Shown: piece by piece, positions 19,430 through 53,958 of the stretch
How the letters are laid out: each line of letters starts with the position of its first letter
Position numbering within the stretch: position 1 is the stretch's first letter
Source: Sphingomonas immobilis
GTDB lineage: Bacteria; Pseudomonadota; Alphaproteobacteria; Sphingomonadales; Sphingomonadaceae
Assembly (NCBI RefSeq): GCF_030580995.1
Contig: NZ_JAUQSZ010000001.1
Location: 434,001-498,000, forward strand
Direction: 5' to 3'
DNA: 64,000 nucleotides
Notes under the pieces: model-generated
Told to the model about the DNA's origin: nothing
Seen by the model: the letters and a program-made list of their open reading frames with translations, nothing else
The model's database searches: none
Position numbers and translations under genes: made by a program

Positions 19430-19444
19430 ACCTAAGCCGCGAGG

Positions 19445-19472
19445 GTCTGTTTGCGACCCATTGCGGACATTC
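19445..19472 (-). repeat. 28-nt GAATGTCCGC...AAACAGAC repeat, copy 1
   Basis: Read on the minus strand, this matches the copy at 26569-26596 in 25 of 28 positions by eye: GAATGTCCGC, then GGGTCG, then AAACAGAC. It lies just upstream of the AT-richer gene at 19496-20026, on the side away from element copy B and in the same orientation as that element. Confidence 0.7.
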
Positions 19473-19495
19473 GCTCTTCGCCGCATCCTGCTTAG

Positions 19496-20026
19496 ATGAA
19501 CGAAGCGTCAAGCCGTTGTTGTTGCGCATCCCTGCCTGACTTGGCCGCAGTGCCGATGGGTGGAGACGGTCTGGACGAGCGAGTGTTCGCGACTGTCGAG
19601 AATGTAGTCGATCATGGCGGAGACGCTTGGTGGTTACACCTATCGCAGTGCCATGCGTGCGGTCAGCATTGGATGATTGCTCAGGAAGAACGCATCTTCG
19701 ATGAGTATTTCCTACGGCGGTTGAGCGTAGATGAAGCCGACCGCATTTTTGTCAATGCCGAATGGCCGGTCGAGTTTCTCAGTTACGAGCGCGTGCTAAA
19801 AACAGGGCACGCGTTGCGTATTCGACCTTGCATCTTCTTGGAGCGCCTCTCCCCGTCGCTGGTTTGGACGGCGGAAGACCTGCGAAAAGAACGGCCCGAC
19901 ATCTCAGTGGAAGAGATCTCGCTTCTGCTCGGTGTCACCGCAACGCAAGCGGGGCGGCTTTTGGTAACAGCGTCATCGGAGCAGGGTTCGTGGTGGCAGC
20001 GGATGCGCCACCGTCTGGGTTGGTAG
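19496..20026 (+). CDS. orphan protein with a small zinc-ribbon-like pair (cargo gene of islet B)
   Basis: A 176-residue protein of unrecognised family. It has a Cys-rich N-terminus (SSRCCCASLPD), a WWLHLSQCHACGQHW segment whose CxxC may bind metal with the N-terminal cysteines, and a helical C-terminal part (EEISLLLGVTATQAGRLLV) with a possible helix-turn-helix flavour. No signal peptide or TM. Base composition is clearly AT-richer than its neighbours: two 60-base lines count 58% and 55% GC against 77% in the end of the preceding gene. It is bracketed by the 28-nt repeat (19445-19472) and element copy B, with its 3' end facing the element. Confidence 0.6.
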   Translation: MNEASSRCCCASLPDLAAVPMGGDGLDERVFATVENVVDHGGDAWWLHLSQCHACGQHWMIAQEERIFDEYFLRRLSVDEADRIFVNAEWPVEFLSYERVLKTGHALRIRPCIFLERLSPSLVWTAEDLRKERPDISVEEISLLLGVTATQAGRLLVTASSEQGSWWQRMRHRLGW

Positions 20027-20047
20027 CGTCTAGTTCGGCGAAGCAGA

Positions 20048-20392
20048 AATGTCCGCTTTCCACCCGATCCCGGACATTCCCGCTGTCCTACACGCAACCG
20101 ATCTGCGATATCGCGCCGACGCTCTTTGAACCGTTGGACCCGCCACTCGCCATTCCCGCGAAAACCGTTCTCGCGTCCGCGCCGCGCGGCCGCCGGAAAG
20201 GGACAACAGACGCAGACGTAGCGTAACTTTGTAAACTTCCGCGTACAAACCGTCCAACACGTGAGCGCCCGTACACCCCGGACCAGTGTGATCCTAGTGT
20301 GACTTTCCGCGCTCGATCAGCGCAATTTCGGAAACGATCGTGGGTGACAGTTTCGATTCAGGTGTCAATCTGTCAACCGAGCTATCACTTTA
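20048..20392 (-). repeat. dispersed composite element, copy B (fills the 20027-20389 gap)
   Basis: Read on the minus strand from the end of the 62-residue gene: module 1 (20392-20348) GACAGATTGACACCTGAATC, module 2 (20340-20322), module 3 (20311-20284) with two CACACT units, then about 190 nt of copy-specific sequence, ATCGCAGATCG, module 4 GTGTAGGACAG (20092-20082) and a hairpin AATGTCCG...CGGACATT (20048-20078). Module 1 contains the stop codon of the adjacent gene (20390-20392). Next in this direction comes the AT-rich gene at 19496-20026, in antisense. No credible gene lies inside the 363-base gap itself. Confidence 0.8.
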
Positions 20393-25648: not shown

Positions 25649-25846
25649 GGCGCGATCGTTTCCAGAATTGTACCGATCCGGCGCGGAAGGTCACACTAAG
25701 GTCACACTGATCCGCAGGGTTCGCGCGTCCCTGTGCGGCTGGCGGGGCGAGGGTATGTTGGCGATGAGAAAGAGCGGCCGCGAGGATAGCGCAAGGGCGC
25801 GGGTGTAGGACAGGGGAATGTCGGTAGTGGGTGGAAAGCCGACAGT
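25604..25846 (+). repeat. dispersed composite element, copy C (overlaps comEC 3' end)
   Basis: Forward order: module 1 (25604-25645) with TGATAGCTCGCTTGACAG, module 2 (25653-25670), module 3 (25681-25712) with GTCACACTAAGGTCACACTG, copy-specific sequence, module 4 GTGTAGGACAG (25803-25813) and a hairpin TGTCGG (25819-25824)/CCGACA (25839-25844). Module 1 reads through in frame as the end of ComEC. The AT-rich gene at 25864-26463 follows in antisense. Confidence 0.8.
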
Positions 25847-25863
25847 GGCGAGGCGCAGCTTCT

Positions 25864-26463
25864 TCATTTCGCCGGAGACAGATCGGGTAACTCAGTTAGA
25901 CGAGGCAAAACGTCAGCGTGCGGAGGGTGATCTGGGCCCCGACGTTCGGCGAGGCGGTACGGTACGTACCAGTCGTCAAATTCATCGTTTCCGATGGGGG
26001 ACCTCACCGGCAACATGATAACGTCGTGGGCGGACGGCCCTTGCCAGACAACTCTACAGCGATCGGGCAGATCAGGCGCAGAGACGCATAGTCGCGCTGT
26101 CCCTCGATATGGCTCAACCTTCCAACGCCCGTCGTAAGTTCGACGAGCGCGATGGCACTCGTTCAGCGACCAATCTCCATTCTGGTAAAATGTCTCTAAT
26201 GGCGCGCAACCTCCCATAAAGGTGACGCTCACGGTTATGCCCCGTGCGGGTTCATAGCGTTCATTGAGTTCGAGAGTTCTATTTGCGAACATTGCCGATA
26301 CTTGCGCCGCATCGAGAGGAACCCAGTTAGGTTCTGCTAGCCGCAATGGCGGCGAGCGGGGAGACGCTAGCGTTTGCGCAACGGCCGTGCCAGCGACGAC
26401 GGTGGCTCCGCCCGTAAAGGCTATGAGCGCTTTTTTTAAGCCACGAATACGCCGTCTTGCCAT
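25864..26463 (-). CDS. exported orphan protein (cargo gene of islet C)
   Basis: A 199-residue protein of unrecognised family, starting MARRRIRGLKKALIAFTGGA, a twin-basic signal peptide with likely cleavage after AVA (residue 29). The mature part has two cysteine pairs (GGCAPLE, NECHRAR, RLCVSAPD, DRCRVVW) that could form disulfides, and ends in a polar tail. Base composition is much AT-richer than the flanks (two 60-base lines count 58% and 47% GC). It lies between lexA and comEC, usually adjacent, bracketed by element C on its 3' side and the 28-nt repeat on its 5' side. Confidence 0.6.
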   Translation of the reverse strand: MARRRIRGLKKALIAFTGGATVVAGTAVAQTLASPRSPPLRLAEPNWVPLDAAQVSAMFANRTLELNERYEPARGITVSVTFMGGCAPLETFYQNGDWSLNECHRARRTYDGRWKVEPYRGTARLCVSAPDLPDRCRVVWQGPSAHDVIMLPVRSPIGNDEFDDWYVPYRLAERRGPDHPPHADVLPRLTELPDLSPAK

Positions 26464-26568
26464 CAGCGATCACTCCTCATTCGAAAATATACGAAAGTGG
26501 CGATGGTTCGTCGATGCCTTGGGAAAGTCCGCTAGTGGGGCGTTGACTGCCCTTCCACGAAGCCCGCT

Positions 26569-26600
26569 GAATGTCCGCTAAGGGTCGTAAACAGACGTTC
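26569..26600 (+). repeat. 28-nt GAATGTCCGC...AAACAGAC repeat, copy 2
   Basis: 26569-26596 matches the copy at 19445-19472 (opposite strand) at 25 of 28 positions. With the next four bases it can fold as GAATGTC...GACGTTC. It lies 106 nt upstream of the AT-rich gene's start codon and in the same orientation as element C, mirroring the arrangement at islet B. Confidence 0.7.
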
Positions 26601-26606
26601 GGCCGT

Positions 26607-26726
26607 AGTTTTCCGCCGCCGGCAAAGCCGTCGGCCGGGTTCGGTGCTTCGCGCCGACCCGCCGTCCGGGCCGGGCGCTGCGGCAGAGCCGCACCGGCGC
26701 ATAGCTACGCTACGCGCCTGCGGCCG
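26607..26726. repeat. hairpin cluster at the lexA 3' end
   Basis: A run of GC-rich hairpins: GCCGGCAAAGCCGTCGGCC, then a CGGGTTCGGTGCTTCGC / GACCCG stem, GCGGCAGAGCCGC, and GCGCATAGCTACGCTACGCG right before the lexA stop. A clearly related cluster lies at 60551-60643 and a looser one at 44685-44766; all three sit at the 3' end of a leftward gene, suggesting a terminator or 3'-protection role. Confidence 0.65.
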
Positions 26727-43798: not shown

Positions 43799-43948
43799 AT
43801 GGAATCGAACCTGTTTTATTACTCGCGCCGCGCCATGCAGGAACATGCCGCGGCCCGCACGGCGCTCACCGCGGAAGCCCGCCAGCGACGGCTCGAACTG
43901 GCGCAGATGTTCGAAGCCAAGGTCGCCGCGCAGAAGATGAGCGCCTGA
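43799..43948 (+). CDS. 49-residue conserved-looking small protein
   Basis: A small, basic, helical protein, MESNLFYYSRRAMQEHAAAR..., too short for strong evidence. The start ATG at 43799 follows a GGGGCAG run; codon use is GC3-rich like real genes here, and charged residues are spaced as in an amphipathic helix. Element D begins 7 nt past its stop, the same placement other copies show relative to real genes, which supports it being a gene. The function is unknown. Confidence 0.5.
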   Translation: MESNLFYYSRRAMQEHAAARTALTAEARQRRLELAQMFEAKVAAQKMSA

Positions 43949-43954
43949 GCGGGG

Positions 43955-44158
43955 GCGCGGAAAGTCACACTAAGGTCACACTGATTGGCATGTTTCGGGC
44001 GCGCATGTGGCGTGGCGAAGTTCACACCTGGTTGACACGATTGACACCTGGTTGGAAACTATTCGGACTGATCGTTTCCGAAATTGCGATGATCTCCGGC
44101 GATGTCAAAGAGCGTTCGGCCGAGGGATGGCAGGTTTCGGGCGTGTAGGACAGGGGCA
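43955..44158 (+). repeat. dispersed composite element, copy D (rearranged)
   Basis: Module 3 comes first (43955-43986, GTCACACTAAGGTCACACTG). Then a variant of module 1 with a tandem ACACCTGGTTG unit (44021-44060), module 2 (about 44069-44087, GATCGTTTCCGAAATTGC) and module 4 GTGTAGGACAG (44143-44153). The hairpin that follows module 4 in copies B and C is not clear. The AT-rich gene at 44159 follows immediately in antisense; its stop codon abuts the element. Confidence 0.75.
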
Positions 44159-44743
44159 TTACAGATAGGGCCCGTTCCACTTCAATGTCGTGGGTTTCTC
44201 GCAGGTTCCGGGAAGGCGTTTCAAGTTAACGACCCGGTCGATGAGAACGGCGTTATTGGTCGAGTTCGGGTAGCCGTGAGCACTCTCTATAACCGTGCGT
44301 CGTCCGATCAGTTCAATCATATGTTCGCATCTCGGTTCGCCTAGCTTCGCCCACCATTTCACGCCCGGGGAGGTTGTCACTACGCTGCGGGTTGAGTTCC
44401 AATAATTGCTTGGTCTCTTGTTCGCGTTTTCGTAGAAATCCGTTCCATAGATGATGCCGCGCATCGGGCGGGCGTCTCCAAAGCGGTAACAATCGCGTAT
44501 GTCAGTATCTTGCAGATACGCTGTGCCGTCTGCGTGTCTGGCCGGGCGCTTGCAGGGATAGCCGAAGACTCCTCCGGTCACCGCCTTCGCCTGATCGTCG
44601 AGGTGGCGGTACGCATCGGTCGGGACACCGGTTTTATTGCAGCCGGCCAGCGCGAGCGCGGTAGCGAGGCCCGCCGCGGCGAAGCCGCGTCGTCGGACGG
44701 TCGCGGGCGCGACCGCCGGCCGGGCCGGTGGCCTCTCGCGCAT
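44159..44743 (-). CDS. orphan lipoprotein (cargo gene of islet D)
   Basis: About 194 residues of unrecognised family. A twin-Arg-like lead RRRGFAAAGLATALALAGC ends in lipobox LAGC, so it should be a lipoprotein; the start is placed at the ATG 44743, inside a hairpin cluster, and could be elsewhere. The mature part contains GGVFGYPCKRPARH, IRDCYRFGDARPM, an NYWNSTRSVVTTSPG stretch and two further cysteines. Two 60-base lines count 55% and 50% GC, well below the neighbours. Its 3' end abuts element D and its 5' end runs into the hairpin cluster at the VWA gene's 3' end. Confidence 0.55.
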   Translation of the reverse strand: MRERPPARPAVAPATVRRRGFAAAGLATALALAGCNKTGVPTDAYRHLDDQAKAVTGGVFGYPCKRPARHADGTAYLQDTDIRDCYRFGDARPMRGIIYGTDFYENANKRPSNYWNSTRSVVTTSPGVKWWAKLGEPRCEHMIELIGRRTVIESAHGYPNSTNNAVLIDRVVNLKRLPGTCEKPTTLKWNGPYL

Positions 44744-44766
44744 AGCTGCGCTATCCGCGTGGGCCA
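44685..44766. repeat. hairpin cluster at the VWA gene 3' end
   Basis: GCCGGCCGGGCCGGTGGCC-type stems and GCGCATAGCTGCGCTATCCGCG immediately before the stop codon of the leftward VWA gene. The last hairpin matches the one before the lexA stop (GCGCATAGCTACGCTACGCG). Boundaries are approximate; it also supplies the probable start of the adjacent lipoprotein gene. Confidence 0.5.
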
Positions 44767-44767
44767 C

Positions 44768-45946
44768 CTAGCGTTTCCTCGTCAGCTCCCGCATCGCGTC
44801 GTCGAGACCTTGCAGCGTCAGCGGGTACATGCGGTCGTTCATCAGCTCGCGCATCACCTTGGTGGATTGCGAATGGACCCATTGTTCCTTCGGGGTCGGG
44901 TTGAGCCACACCGCCGCCGGATAGGTTGTCGTCAGCCGGTCCATCCACACCGCGCCCGCTTCCGGGTTCATATGCTCGACCGAGCCGCCGGGATGCGTGA
45001 TCTCGTACGGGCTCATCGCGGCATCGCCGACGAACACCAGTTTGTAATCGTGGCCGTATTTGTGGAGGATATCCCACATCGGCGTGCGCTCGGCGAAGCG
45101 GCGGCGGTTGTCCTTCCACACGCCTTCGTAGGGGCAATTGTGGAAGTAGAAGAATTCGAGGTTCTTGAACTCGGTCGTCGCGGCGGAGAACAGCTCCTCG
45201 CAGAGCTTGATGAACGGGTCCATCGATCCGCCGACGTCGAGGAACAGCAGCAATTTCACGGCATTGCGCCGTTCCGGGCGCATGTGGACGTCGAGCCAGC
45301 CCTGGCGCGCGGTGCCGCTGATCGTAGCGTCGATGTCGAGCTCGTCGGCGGCGCCGGTGCGGGCGAACTTGCGCAGGCGGCGCAGCGCGATCTTGATGTT
45401 GCGCGTGCCGAGCTCGCGCGTGGCGTCGAGGTTCTTGAACTCGCGCTGTTCCCACACCTTGATCGCGCGGCCGTGCTTGGCCTGGCCGCCGATCCGCACG
45501 CCTTCGGGGTTATAGCCGCTGTGGCCGAAGGGCGAGGTGCCGCCGGTGCCGATCCACTTGTTGCCGCCCTGGTGCCGGCCCTGCTGCTCCTCGAGCCGCT
45601 TCTTCAGCGTCTCCATGATCTCGTCCCAGTCGCCGAGCGACTTGATCTTTTCCATCTCCTCGGCCGTGAGATATTTCTCGGCGACGGCGCGCAGCCATTC
45701 GGCGGGAACGTCGGTGACGTCCTGGCCGTAGCTCGTCAGCAAGCCCTTGAAGACCTTGCCGAACACCTGATCGAAGCGATCGAGCAGGCCCTCGTCCTTC
45801 ACGTAGACGGCGCGGGAGAGGTAGTAGAATTGCTCGGGGTCGCGATCGATCACCTCGGCGTCGAGCGCTTCGAGCAGCAGGAGATGCTCTTTCAAGCTGG
45901 CGGGGATGCCGGCGGCGCGGAGCGCGTCGAGGAAATTGAGGAACAT
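44768..45946 (-). CDS. VWA domain protein (CoxE-like), MoxR partner
   Basis: A 392-residue cytosolic protein. The N-terminal half is helical (MFLNFLDALRAAGIPASLKE), a Gly-rich middle (GNKWIGTGGTSPFGHSGYNP) precedes a von Willebrand A fold. The MIDAS motif reads DVGGSMD, i.e. DxGGS with Gly in place of the first Ser of DxSxS. Such proteins pair with MoxR AAA+ ATPases to act as chaperones inserting cofactors or assembling complexes; the MoxR gene is 1.2 kb upstream at 47168. The target is unknown; no cox or mxa genes are present. Confidence 0.85.
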   Translation of the reverse strand: MFLNFLDALRAAGIPASLKEHLLLLEALDAEVIDRDPEQFYYLSRAVYVKDEGLLDRFDQVFGKVFKGLLTSYGQDVTDVPAEWLRAVAEKYLTAEEMEKIKSLGDWDEIMETLKKRLEEQQGRHQGGNKWIGTGGTSPFGHSGYNPEGVRIGGQAKHGRAIKVWEQREFKNLDATRELGTRNIKIALRRLRKFARTGAADELDIDATISGTARQGWLDVHMRPERRNAVKLLLFLDVGGSMDPFIKLCEELFSAATTEFKNLEFFYFHNCPYEGVWKDNRRRFAERTPMWDILHKYGHDYKLVFVGDAAMSPYEITHPGGSVEHMNPEAGAVWMDRLTTTYPAAVWLNPTPKEQWVHSQSTKVMRELMNDRMYPLTLQGLDDAMRELTRKR

Positions 45947-53436: not shown

Positions 53437-53822
53437 GGCGCGGGATCTGTGGCACGTGCTTCGACAGGCTCAGCACGAACGGGATTTTGAAATGAGGGAC
53501 TGACCCCCGACTCCGTTCGTGCTGAGCTTGTCGAAGCACGTGTCCCACGCGACACCGCCAGTTGCGACACCCGCTCCCAATCGCCCGCGATCAGCGCTTC
53601 CTTCTTGGCGCGCGACCACCCCTTAATCTGCCGTTCCGCCGCAAGCGCCTCGAGCCGGCTCGCGAAATCCTGACACCAGACCAAGGCCACCGGCTGGCGA
53701 CGAGCCGTGTAGTCGCTTCCCGCGCCACCTTCGTGCGCACCGATCCTCGGTTCGAGATCGTCGGTGTGGCCCGCATAGTAGCTGCCGTCACCGCAGCGCA
53801 GGAGATAGGCCCAAAACACCAT
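53433..53822 (-). CDS. GIY-YIG nuclease-domain protein with repeat-encoded C-terminus
   Basis: A 129-residue protein. Residues 1-90 are a UPF0213-like GIY-YIG domain (FWAYLLRCGDGSYYAGHTDD, an Arg in TARRQPVALVW and a Glu in AAERQIKGW). The last 35 residues (RASTSSARTESGV... to [14 protein letters not shown]) are encoded by an inverted palindromic repeat (53453-53542) and should be disordered. The stop overlaps the dnaG start, so this repeat-derived tail lies between two coupled genes. The function of this subgroup is not settled. Confidence 0.8.
   Translation of the reverse strand: MVFWAYLLRCGDGSYYAGHTDDLEPRIGAHEGGAGSDYTARRQPVALVWCQDFASRLEALAAERQIKGWSRAKKEALIAGDWERVSQLAVSRGTRASTSSARTESGVSPSFQNPVRAEPVEARATDPAP
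53453..53542. repeat. inverted repeat pair, GAGCTTGTCGAAGCACGTG family, inside a coding region
   Basis: Arms 53453-53482 (CACGTGCTTCGACAGGCTCA...) and 53513-53542 (its inverse, TGAGCTTGTCGAAGCACGTG) lie within the 3' end of the GIY-YIG gene and read in frame as ASTSSARTE and AEPVEA-type peptides. The peptide RASTSSARTE is a known translation of this repeat class. Confidence 0.85.
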
Positions 53823-53873
53823 CGCGAGGCGATGCCAGATATCGGCGATTCGGTCGAGAGGGTGGTACTTGGG

Positions 53874-53905
53874 GCACGTGCTTCGACAAGCTCAGCACGA
53901 ACGGG
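53874..53905. repeat. single arm of the GAGCTTGTCGAAGCACGTG repeat
   Basis: GCACGTGCTTCGACAAGCTC and onward through the CGAACGGG end, 52 nt upstream of the GIY-YIG start and 54 nt past the yqeY stop. Only one arm is present, unlike the other copies. It may carry part of the GIY-YIG-dnaG-rpoD promoter region. Confidence 0.75.
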
Positions 53906-53958
53906 AAGGAGTGGGCGCAGGCCGGGGGGAGGTGGGAAGAAGGCCTGTGTCGCTCACC

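Follow-up and report, generated by a model that had tools for sequence, protein, structure and literature searches.

A short intergenic element, designated copy D, lies at positions 43955-44153 (+ strand) of the 64,000-nucleotide stretch of DNA that was analyzed (the window). Its left neighbor is a gene on the + strand for a protein of 49 amino acids (43799-43948), and on its right one further gene separates it from a VWA-domain gene (44768-45946, - strand; the name is that of the earlier note) that was used as an anchor in 295 genomes. Written in the direction of the earlier note, D has the order M2, M1', palindrome, M3, box. M2 (43961-43985, + strand) consists of two 11-nt direct repeats (AAAGTCACACT and AAGGTCACACT) plus GAT, and M1' (44021-44055, + strand), a subfamily form of the module M1, contains the direct repeats TTCACACCTGGTTG and TTGACACCTGGTTG at a spacing of 20. 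The spaced palindrome GGAAAC-N14-GTTTCC that follows (44054-44079) belongs to M1 and is similarly spelled in other copies. M3 (44105-44114) carries GCTCTTT at 44107-44113 on the - strand (AAAGAGC on the + strand), which stands at a near-fixed distance from the box and close to a putative transcription start. Between the two, TGCCATCCC (44124-44132, - strand) is a weak copy of the extended -10-like motif TGCnATAnT, which its sequence and the family profile mark as a candidate promoter part. The box (44143-44153) reads CTGTCCTACAC on the - strand and GTGTAGGACAG on the + strand, and would be the -35-side element of a promoter directed toward lower coordinates. The GC content of D is 0.553, and no inverted repeat of at least 10 nt was found in 43945-44160. 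The 16 nt preceding the box (44128-44143) reappear after M2 (43986-44001) with 15 of 16 positions identical, which hints that D was assembled by joining two elements.

As described in the earlier note, the 3' end of an antisense ORF is found 5 nt beyond the box (at 44159), and this ORF is AT-richer than the window (GC 0.609 compared with 0.673). The ORF (44159-44743, - strand) encodes an orphan, predicted lipoprotein of 194 amino acids, with a lipobox (LALAGC) recognized by eye. A hairpin cluster at 44691-44753 contains GCGCATAGCTGCGCTA at 44738, which is common to islet C (26697). The likeness to islet C that had been claimed for this cluster is borne out by GCGCATAGCTRCGCTA, present at 26697 and 44738 and matched just four times, with up to two mismatches, in 800 kb of other own-genome sequence searched; this shared hairpin spans the ATG of the lipoprotein ORF, however, and is not confined to the 3' end of the VWA gene, where it had been placed. 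A tandem duplication in the first module of D had also been proposed. The repeat is present: ACACCTGGTTG, searched with up to one mismatch, has just two matches in the window, at 44024-44034 and 44044-44054. It was mostly inherited with the M1' subfamily, however: the first half, CACACCTGGTTGACACGATTGAC, opens copies L004 and L049 too, and the second half differs from theirs by few bases, so the duplication is largely ancestral.

A modular repeat family within one genome and across the genus

The genome that contains the window has 58 copies of the 11-mer GTGTAGGACAG, compared with two in a reversed control and ∼1.4 expected genome-wide for an 11-mer of this composition; D is a real member of this repeat family. 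Variants at the first base of the box add 27 sites (8 in the control), for a total of 85. A census of modules was made in the 330 nt on one side of (before) each of these 85 boxes, thus covering M1 copies that accompany a box, and distinguished M1 (TTGACAGATTGACACC..., with a spaced palindrome ending GATCGTTTCC), M2 (GTCACACTAAGGTCACACT), M2b (AAGTTTACAAAGTTTACG), M2c (GAAGGTAACGAAGGTAACGCAA), and M3 (AAAGA[GC]C at -32 to -38, with 49 matches). The most frequent order was M1-M3-box (20 sites), followed by M1-box (9), M1-M2-M3-box (8), M2-M3-box, M2-M2b-M3-box, and M2c-box (7 each), M2-box (4), M2-M1-M3-box (3), and other combinations (8). Because the census shows so many orders before the box (fourteen combinations across 73 of the 85 sites, with 12 sites lacking any module at the thresholds used), the modules are separable units, as had been proposed. 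The M1' kind, to which D belongs, accounts for 11 of the 41 M1-bearing sites. The order of D, in which M2 (module 3 of the earlier note) indeed precedes M1' and M3, recurs at L003 and L051 (L051 and L248 denote one place), which does not support the view that its core is freshly rearranged.

Copies of the family are also found in other genomes of the genus, in widely differing numbers. In a set of 121 same-genus genomes, counts of the bare 11-mer are 58 for the present genome (G000), 30 for G097, 29 for G099, 27 for G036, and 0-20 for the rest. The spaced motif AAAGAGC-N22..30-TGTAGGACAG is present in 94 of 295 same-genus genomes (one reversed-control match in the table), with 0-44 copies per species. 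In G097 the tandem repeats are spelled otherwise (GGAAGTGGACGAAGTGGACG) and the box is unchanged. When 20 of the 30 G097 sites were compared with G000, no clearly shared position was found among them: next to the TelA-like and NupC-like genes and in the dnaG-GatB/YqeY gap, the counterpart in G000 has the other orientation, lies on the other side, or lacks a box, and the remaining overlaps are a coding site and the promoter of a helix-turn-helix (HTH) gene itself.

The high copy number in one species, its spread from 0 to 44 across species, the existence of empty sites, and the turnover of positions between G000 and G097 are what would be expected of purely selfish, non-autonomous mobile DNA of the MITE type, with no host function. 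We regard this explanation as quite unlikely, since D has none of the terminal inverted repeats of a MITE, the spacing between box and M3 is near-fixed in 94 species, and the box is reused before conserved genes. REP/BIME, ERIC, BOX, and MITE sequences resemble the family in being short, intergenic, and modular, with many copies whose number varies by species; D differs from them in lacking inverted repeats and structured RNA and in having a promoter-like box that it shares with genes. It also differs from REP/RAYT systems in that the REP-type Y1 transposase (PF01797) has no match in its genome, whereas control genomes including Escherichia coli were positive.

No match to the D element was found among plasmids. 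A phage origin of the element was considered and set aside, as the 14 spaced-motif matches in viral contigs were judged, by a rough estimate, to be at chance level for a collection of that size. In the portions of the literature that were retrieved, no published bacterial promoter study containing the 11-mer was among the matches listed, and a search for published repeats of this kind returned nothing that names the family, which is no proof of its absence. That the family is intergenic, multicopy, and conserved could also point to a structured small RNA or riboswitch, but folding of 24 of the 31 eligible copies gave mean z-scores near 0 (-0.05 on the box strand and -0.20 on the other), and the window has no Rfam match except a tRNA; this candidate was rejected as highly improbable.

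The box as a candidate promoter of phage-derived genes

The earlier note had regarded the 11-mer merely as a terminal boundary. This view does not account for the box standing at a fixed distance before the start codons of HTH genes and also upstream of the lysis genes of a gene transfer agent (GTA), observations that agree better with a promoter. Read on the opposite strand, the box is CTGTCCTACA and precedes the extended -10-like motif, with TGNNAT found at offsets 9-12 from the box in 22 of 85 sites compared with 0.9 expected from shuffles. The column profile of the 58 core copies, taken on the box strand, is xATAxT preceded by TG, 18 nt from CTGTCC, and peaks at the TG and at A2 of the -10 hexamer; GCTCTTT lies downstream, where a transcript would start. 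This arrangement has the appearance of an extended -10 promoter signature, whose activity we infer from sequence. Two observations speak against it: the -10 of D itself (CATCCC) is weak, and the strict TGNNAT is absent at 63 of the 85 sites. In addition, CTGTCC departs from the -35 consensus of sigma-70, which requires an activator or special factor to be postulated.

A promoter in D would be directed toward lower coordinates, through M3, M1', and M2, antisense to the 49-amino acid gene and away from the lipoprotein, and so most likely does not drive the orphan gene. Ahead of the 58 exact sites in the present genome, the gene is antisense in 33 cases and codirectional in 25; because flanking genes occur in either orientation, the sites have no common downstream target gene. 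In 1.66 Mb, 31 sites have a codirectional preceding gene, and at 11 of them no more than 10 nt separate the box from the stop codon of that gene, as if nothing were needed upstream of the box.

In the present genome, several boxes without modules closely precede genes. These are three HTH genes (distance of 26-27 nt between the end of the box and the start of the gene), a GTA_holin_3TM gene (holin, PF11351; 36 nt), and an endolysin-like gene with Pfam scores below the cut-off (L071; 74 nt). Another box is flanked by a divergent pair comprising a DUF6456 gene (PF20057) and an HTH gene, and the downstream genes all read in the direction from CTGTCCTACA to gene except the HTH gene of this pair. 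Across HTH loci, the start of the box is 37-38 nt before the ATG in 15 of 24 (14 exact, one with one mismatch), although 3 of the 15 (L317, L319, and L321) are profile seeds chosen for the box, giving 12 of 21 without seeds; the 24 were parsed from the 30 best matches to this box-seeded profile, with 6 dropped for mismatch to the motif pattern. A sixteenth match in these loci lies elsewhere, and the opposite-strand control gave none. Among the 29 best-matching holin loci of relatives, the box (up to one mismatch) precedes the GTA endolysin-holin operon or the holin in 18, 7 of them exactly, and one further match is off the promoter.

The absence of the box from its expected place in 9 of the 24 HTH loci and 11 of the 29 holin loci counts against a regulon promoter, as does the finding that in eight few-site genomes 10 of 20 boxes lie inside predicted genes. 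One other box in those genomes has no gene called nearby, and the 9 that are upstream of genes precede two endolysins, one DUF6456-like gene, one HTH gene, and five others. As would be expected for a GTA regulon of the GafA type, sites are present upstream of GTA lysis genes. The likeness to the GafA/GafYZ regulon of Rhodobacter and Caulobacter extends to the DUF6456 gene, DUF6456 being an annotation of GafA homologues (PMC9638019). The present system differs in that its main GTA cluster has no exact box, a further point against a regulon promoter: the structural cluster (C2:66000-100000) has no exact 10-mer and one match with one mismatch inside it. The bases that were mutated in the Caulobacter GafY element (ACTATG; PMC11150451) differ from the box in sequence, and the parts of the GafA/GafYZ literature examined do not describe scattered noncoding copies.

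By eye, many HTH promoters have GTTC-N7-GTTC or AACC-N5-GGTT beside the box, and such operator-like sites are often near CTGTCCTACA where it lies upstream of GTA lysis, DUF6456, and HTH genes (loci L071, L075, L091, L100, L105, and L012 of the present genome; L165-L193, L228-L230, and L246 of relatives). We take GTTC-N7-GTTC to be a site of the alphaproteobacterial LexA type. At L208, on contig C15 of the present genome, a gene for a Y-family polymerase (Pfam IMS) is preceded by CTGTCCTACAG and then GTTC-N7-GTTC, with the box ending 28 nt before the predicted start. GTTC and GAAC groups are mentioned in a published study (PMC6473078).

Two of the HTH proteins have a match to phrog_4044, a terminase small subunit family; L100 matches an Sf6 terminase with a score below Pfam cut-offs, and the labels "S24-like" (second gene of L012) and "DUF6456-like" (L228) were given by eye. 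The HTH family is present in 245 of 295 genomes and in all 94 that contain the element (by eye), a co-occurrence with a hypergeometric p of 4.9e-10 computed without correction for relatedness. Within the subset of 121 genomes, the HTH family is present in all 36 that contain the element, and elements are found in none of 26 HTH-negative genomes. Element copy number follows that of HTH genes weakly over the 121 genomes (rho 0.29) and shows no correlation with it among HTH-positive genomes (rho 0.09, p = 0.40), the counts for these 121 genomes having been typed by hand from tables. The GTA holin was also considered as a partner of the element and was discarded, as it shows no association (26 of 36 element genomes compared with 86 of 121, by eye).

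These data bear on the proposal that the repeats are chromosomal binding sites of the terminase-small-subunit-like HTH proteins, analogous to the pac or cosB sites of phages, with the tandem repeats loading the protein and the box regulating the HTH gene. The pac/cosB sites bound by small terminase likewise have tandem direct repeats, and here small-terminase-like genes share the box with the elements, which would be putative HTH binding sites. The phrog_4044 matches, the presence of the HTH family in every element genome, and the tandem 9-11-nt repeats with their species-specific spelling are consistent with this proposal. It is nonetheless improbable in our view, given that copy number does not follow the HTH family among HTH-positive genomes and that the HTH promoter stretches examined by eye lack tandem repeats.

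Orphan genes behind the box and the VWA locus

Outside D, direct 28-nt hairpin repeats bound orphan ORFs behind the box. An orphan ORF lies between two such repeats at islets B and C and at L010, L017, L028, L051, and L217; in L017 the 5' end of the longest ORF contains the far copy, and L010 and L217 have two repeat-bounded units in tandem. The first copy follows the box by 3-4 nt in 8 of 9 substitution-only matches and by ∼33 nt in L051. The repeat was matched loosely, and a similar setting gave 33 matches in 1.66 Mb compared with 17 in the reversed sequence, so weak copies may be chance; a strict half-pattern gave 11 matches in 864 kb, of which 8 were judged real. The single ORFs that are bounded in this way (window 19444-20075 and 25818-26595, the five loci above, and G000:C11:301033-301925) are AT-rich and mostly antisense to the repeat, and the two-unit arrays have back-to-back repeats between their ORFs. 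Elsewhere in the window, a 37-nt repeat (GGCACGTGCTTCGAC..) at 53448-53484 and 53870-53906 bounds a 522-nt gap, and a G097 element sits between genes similar to those that flank this gap.

Of 43 box gaps in 1.66 Mb, 11 contain an AT-rich stretch (at least 450 nt, GC below 0.62, no codon-model gene), compared with 48 of 1139 other gaps (p 3e-6); when contig C15 is left out, the figures are 10 of 41 and 7 of 980 (p 6e-11). The Fisher tests assume that gaps are independent of one another, they follow trials of several thresholds for length and GC, and the exclusion of C15 was decided after inspection. The enrichment is weaker for gene-model-free stretches without the GC filter (6 of 25 compared with 31 of 594 in 864 kb, p = 0.002). 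Genes were called by a codon-usage script trained on 32 window genes, which by design misses AT-rich genes and scores them as gaps. Positions 1-260000 of C15 have a GC content of 0.628, many stretches without codon-model genes, and just two boxes, and C15 looks like a plasmid or large island. The earlier note's picture of an islet with cargo suits the anatomy of D, but cargo is not obligatory, because 31 of the 41 box gaps outside C15 lack an AT-rich stretch; for the family it is optional.

These arrangements could point to a role for the box end as a docking site, that is, an insertion point for orphan genes bounded by 28-nt repeats, with D having lost its repeats. The seven repeat-bounded box sites, two of them with tandem units, the closeness of most first repeats to the box, and the excess of AT-rich stretches outside C15 favor such a role. 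We nevertheless consider it unlikely. The decayed 28-nt copy that the earlier note suggested looking for in D was not found: when the 40 nt after the box are aligned to the repeat, 748 of 1000 shuffles reach the score (compared with 0 of 1000 by the same local alignment at islets B and C), and an ungapped search of 44141-44790 found nothing better than shuffles. Most boxes are also without cargo, the unit at C11:301033-301925 has no adjacent box, the control for the loose pattern is high, the enrichment weakens without the GC filter, the genome has no Y1 transposase, and no GTDB r220 contig contains the exact 20-mer of the box-repeat junction. Integron gene cassettes are similar in carrying single AT-rich orphan genes with direct hairpin repeats at both ends, as at B, C, and other sites; D differs in having no repeat at both ends of its cargo. 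The 28-nt repeat also lacks the attC core triplets of integron cassettes.

The earlier note had asked whether the lipoprotein is conserved beside the VWA gene. None of the 29 VWA loci of relatives that match best encodes it. Relatives of the 49-amino acid gene are near the VWA gene in 6 of the 29; at L117, L119, and L141 this gene ends 19-62 nt from the VWA gene, and no box was found. Eight relatives pair the VWA gene with another convergent gene, across a gap of 15-55 nt in six of them and of 406 and 512 nt in L123 and L125. In these two the gap contains an element in the orientation of D, in which M2 is on the outside and the box (one mismatch in L123) is closest to the VWA gene. L125 also has another reading frame, with a stop codon in frame, between the box and the VWA gene, an arrangement that would also suit docking. 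The elements and differing contents in relatives indicate that the VWA side was used repeatedly and that the sequence behind the box varies. The VWA gene has a best identity of 85% among 294 other genomes, and all empty sites come from species in which the identity of this gene does not exceed 85%, which are too diverged for a target site duplication to be read. Searches of GTDB r220 contigs, viral contigs, plasmids, and phages revealed no relatives of the lipoprotein, and it has no match in Pfam, NCBIfam, or PHROGs. The orphan gene was probably inserted later, behind the D element.

We give about an even chance to the interpretation that D is a copy of a dispersed, high-turnover intergenic repeat whose conserved parts form a promoter of a phage-derived regulon, with the orphan gene a later insertion. 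The promoter would be directed from its 11-mer end into the modules, away from the orphan gene. On the box strand the order would be CTGTCCTACA on the -35 side, ∼10 nt, TGCnATAnT, ∼8 nt, and GCTCTTT at the presumed start; beyond it would come a variable spacer and then the tandem 9-11-nt direct repeats, which resemble sites for a multimeric DNA-binding protein. Because the box is common to phage-derived genes, the repeats most likely belong to the regulon of the terminase-small-subunit-like HTH, GTA lysis, and DUF6456 genes, and when this regulon is on they may produce short unstructured RNAs or bind regulon proteins.

A broader proposal, which we consider a long shot, is that a phage-derived regulon scattered its promoter as modular repeats whose outer end became a dock for orphan genes, forming integron-like cassettes with no known integrase, of which D would hold a naked cargo. 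If true, it would link dispersed intergenic repeats, the regulation of domesticated phages, and entry points of orphan genes, which are usually studied apart. The box provides a 10-base handle with which to define the regulon across the genus and to predict the firing of GTA lysis genes, and the alleles of the VWA locus, which range from no element through the element by itself to the element with either of two different genes, allow gene gain at such sites to be tested directly.
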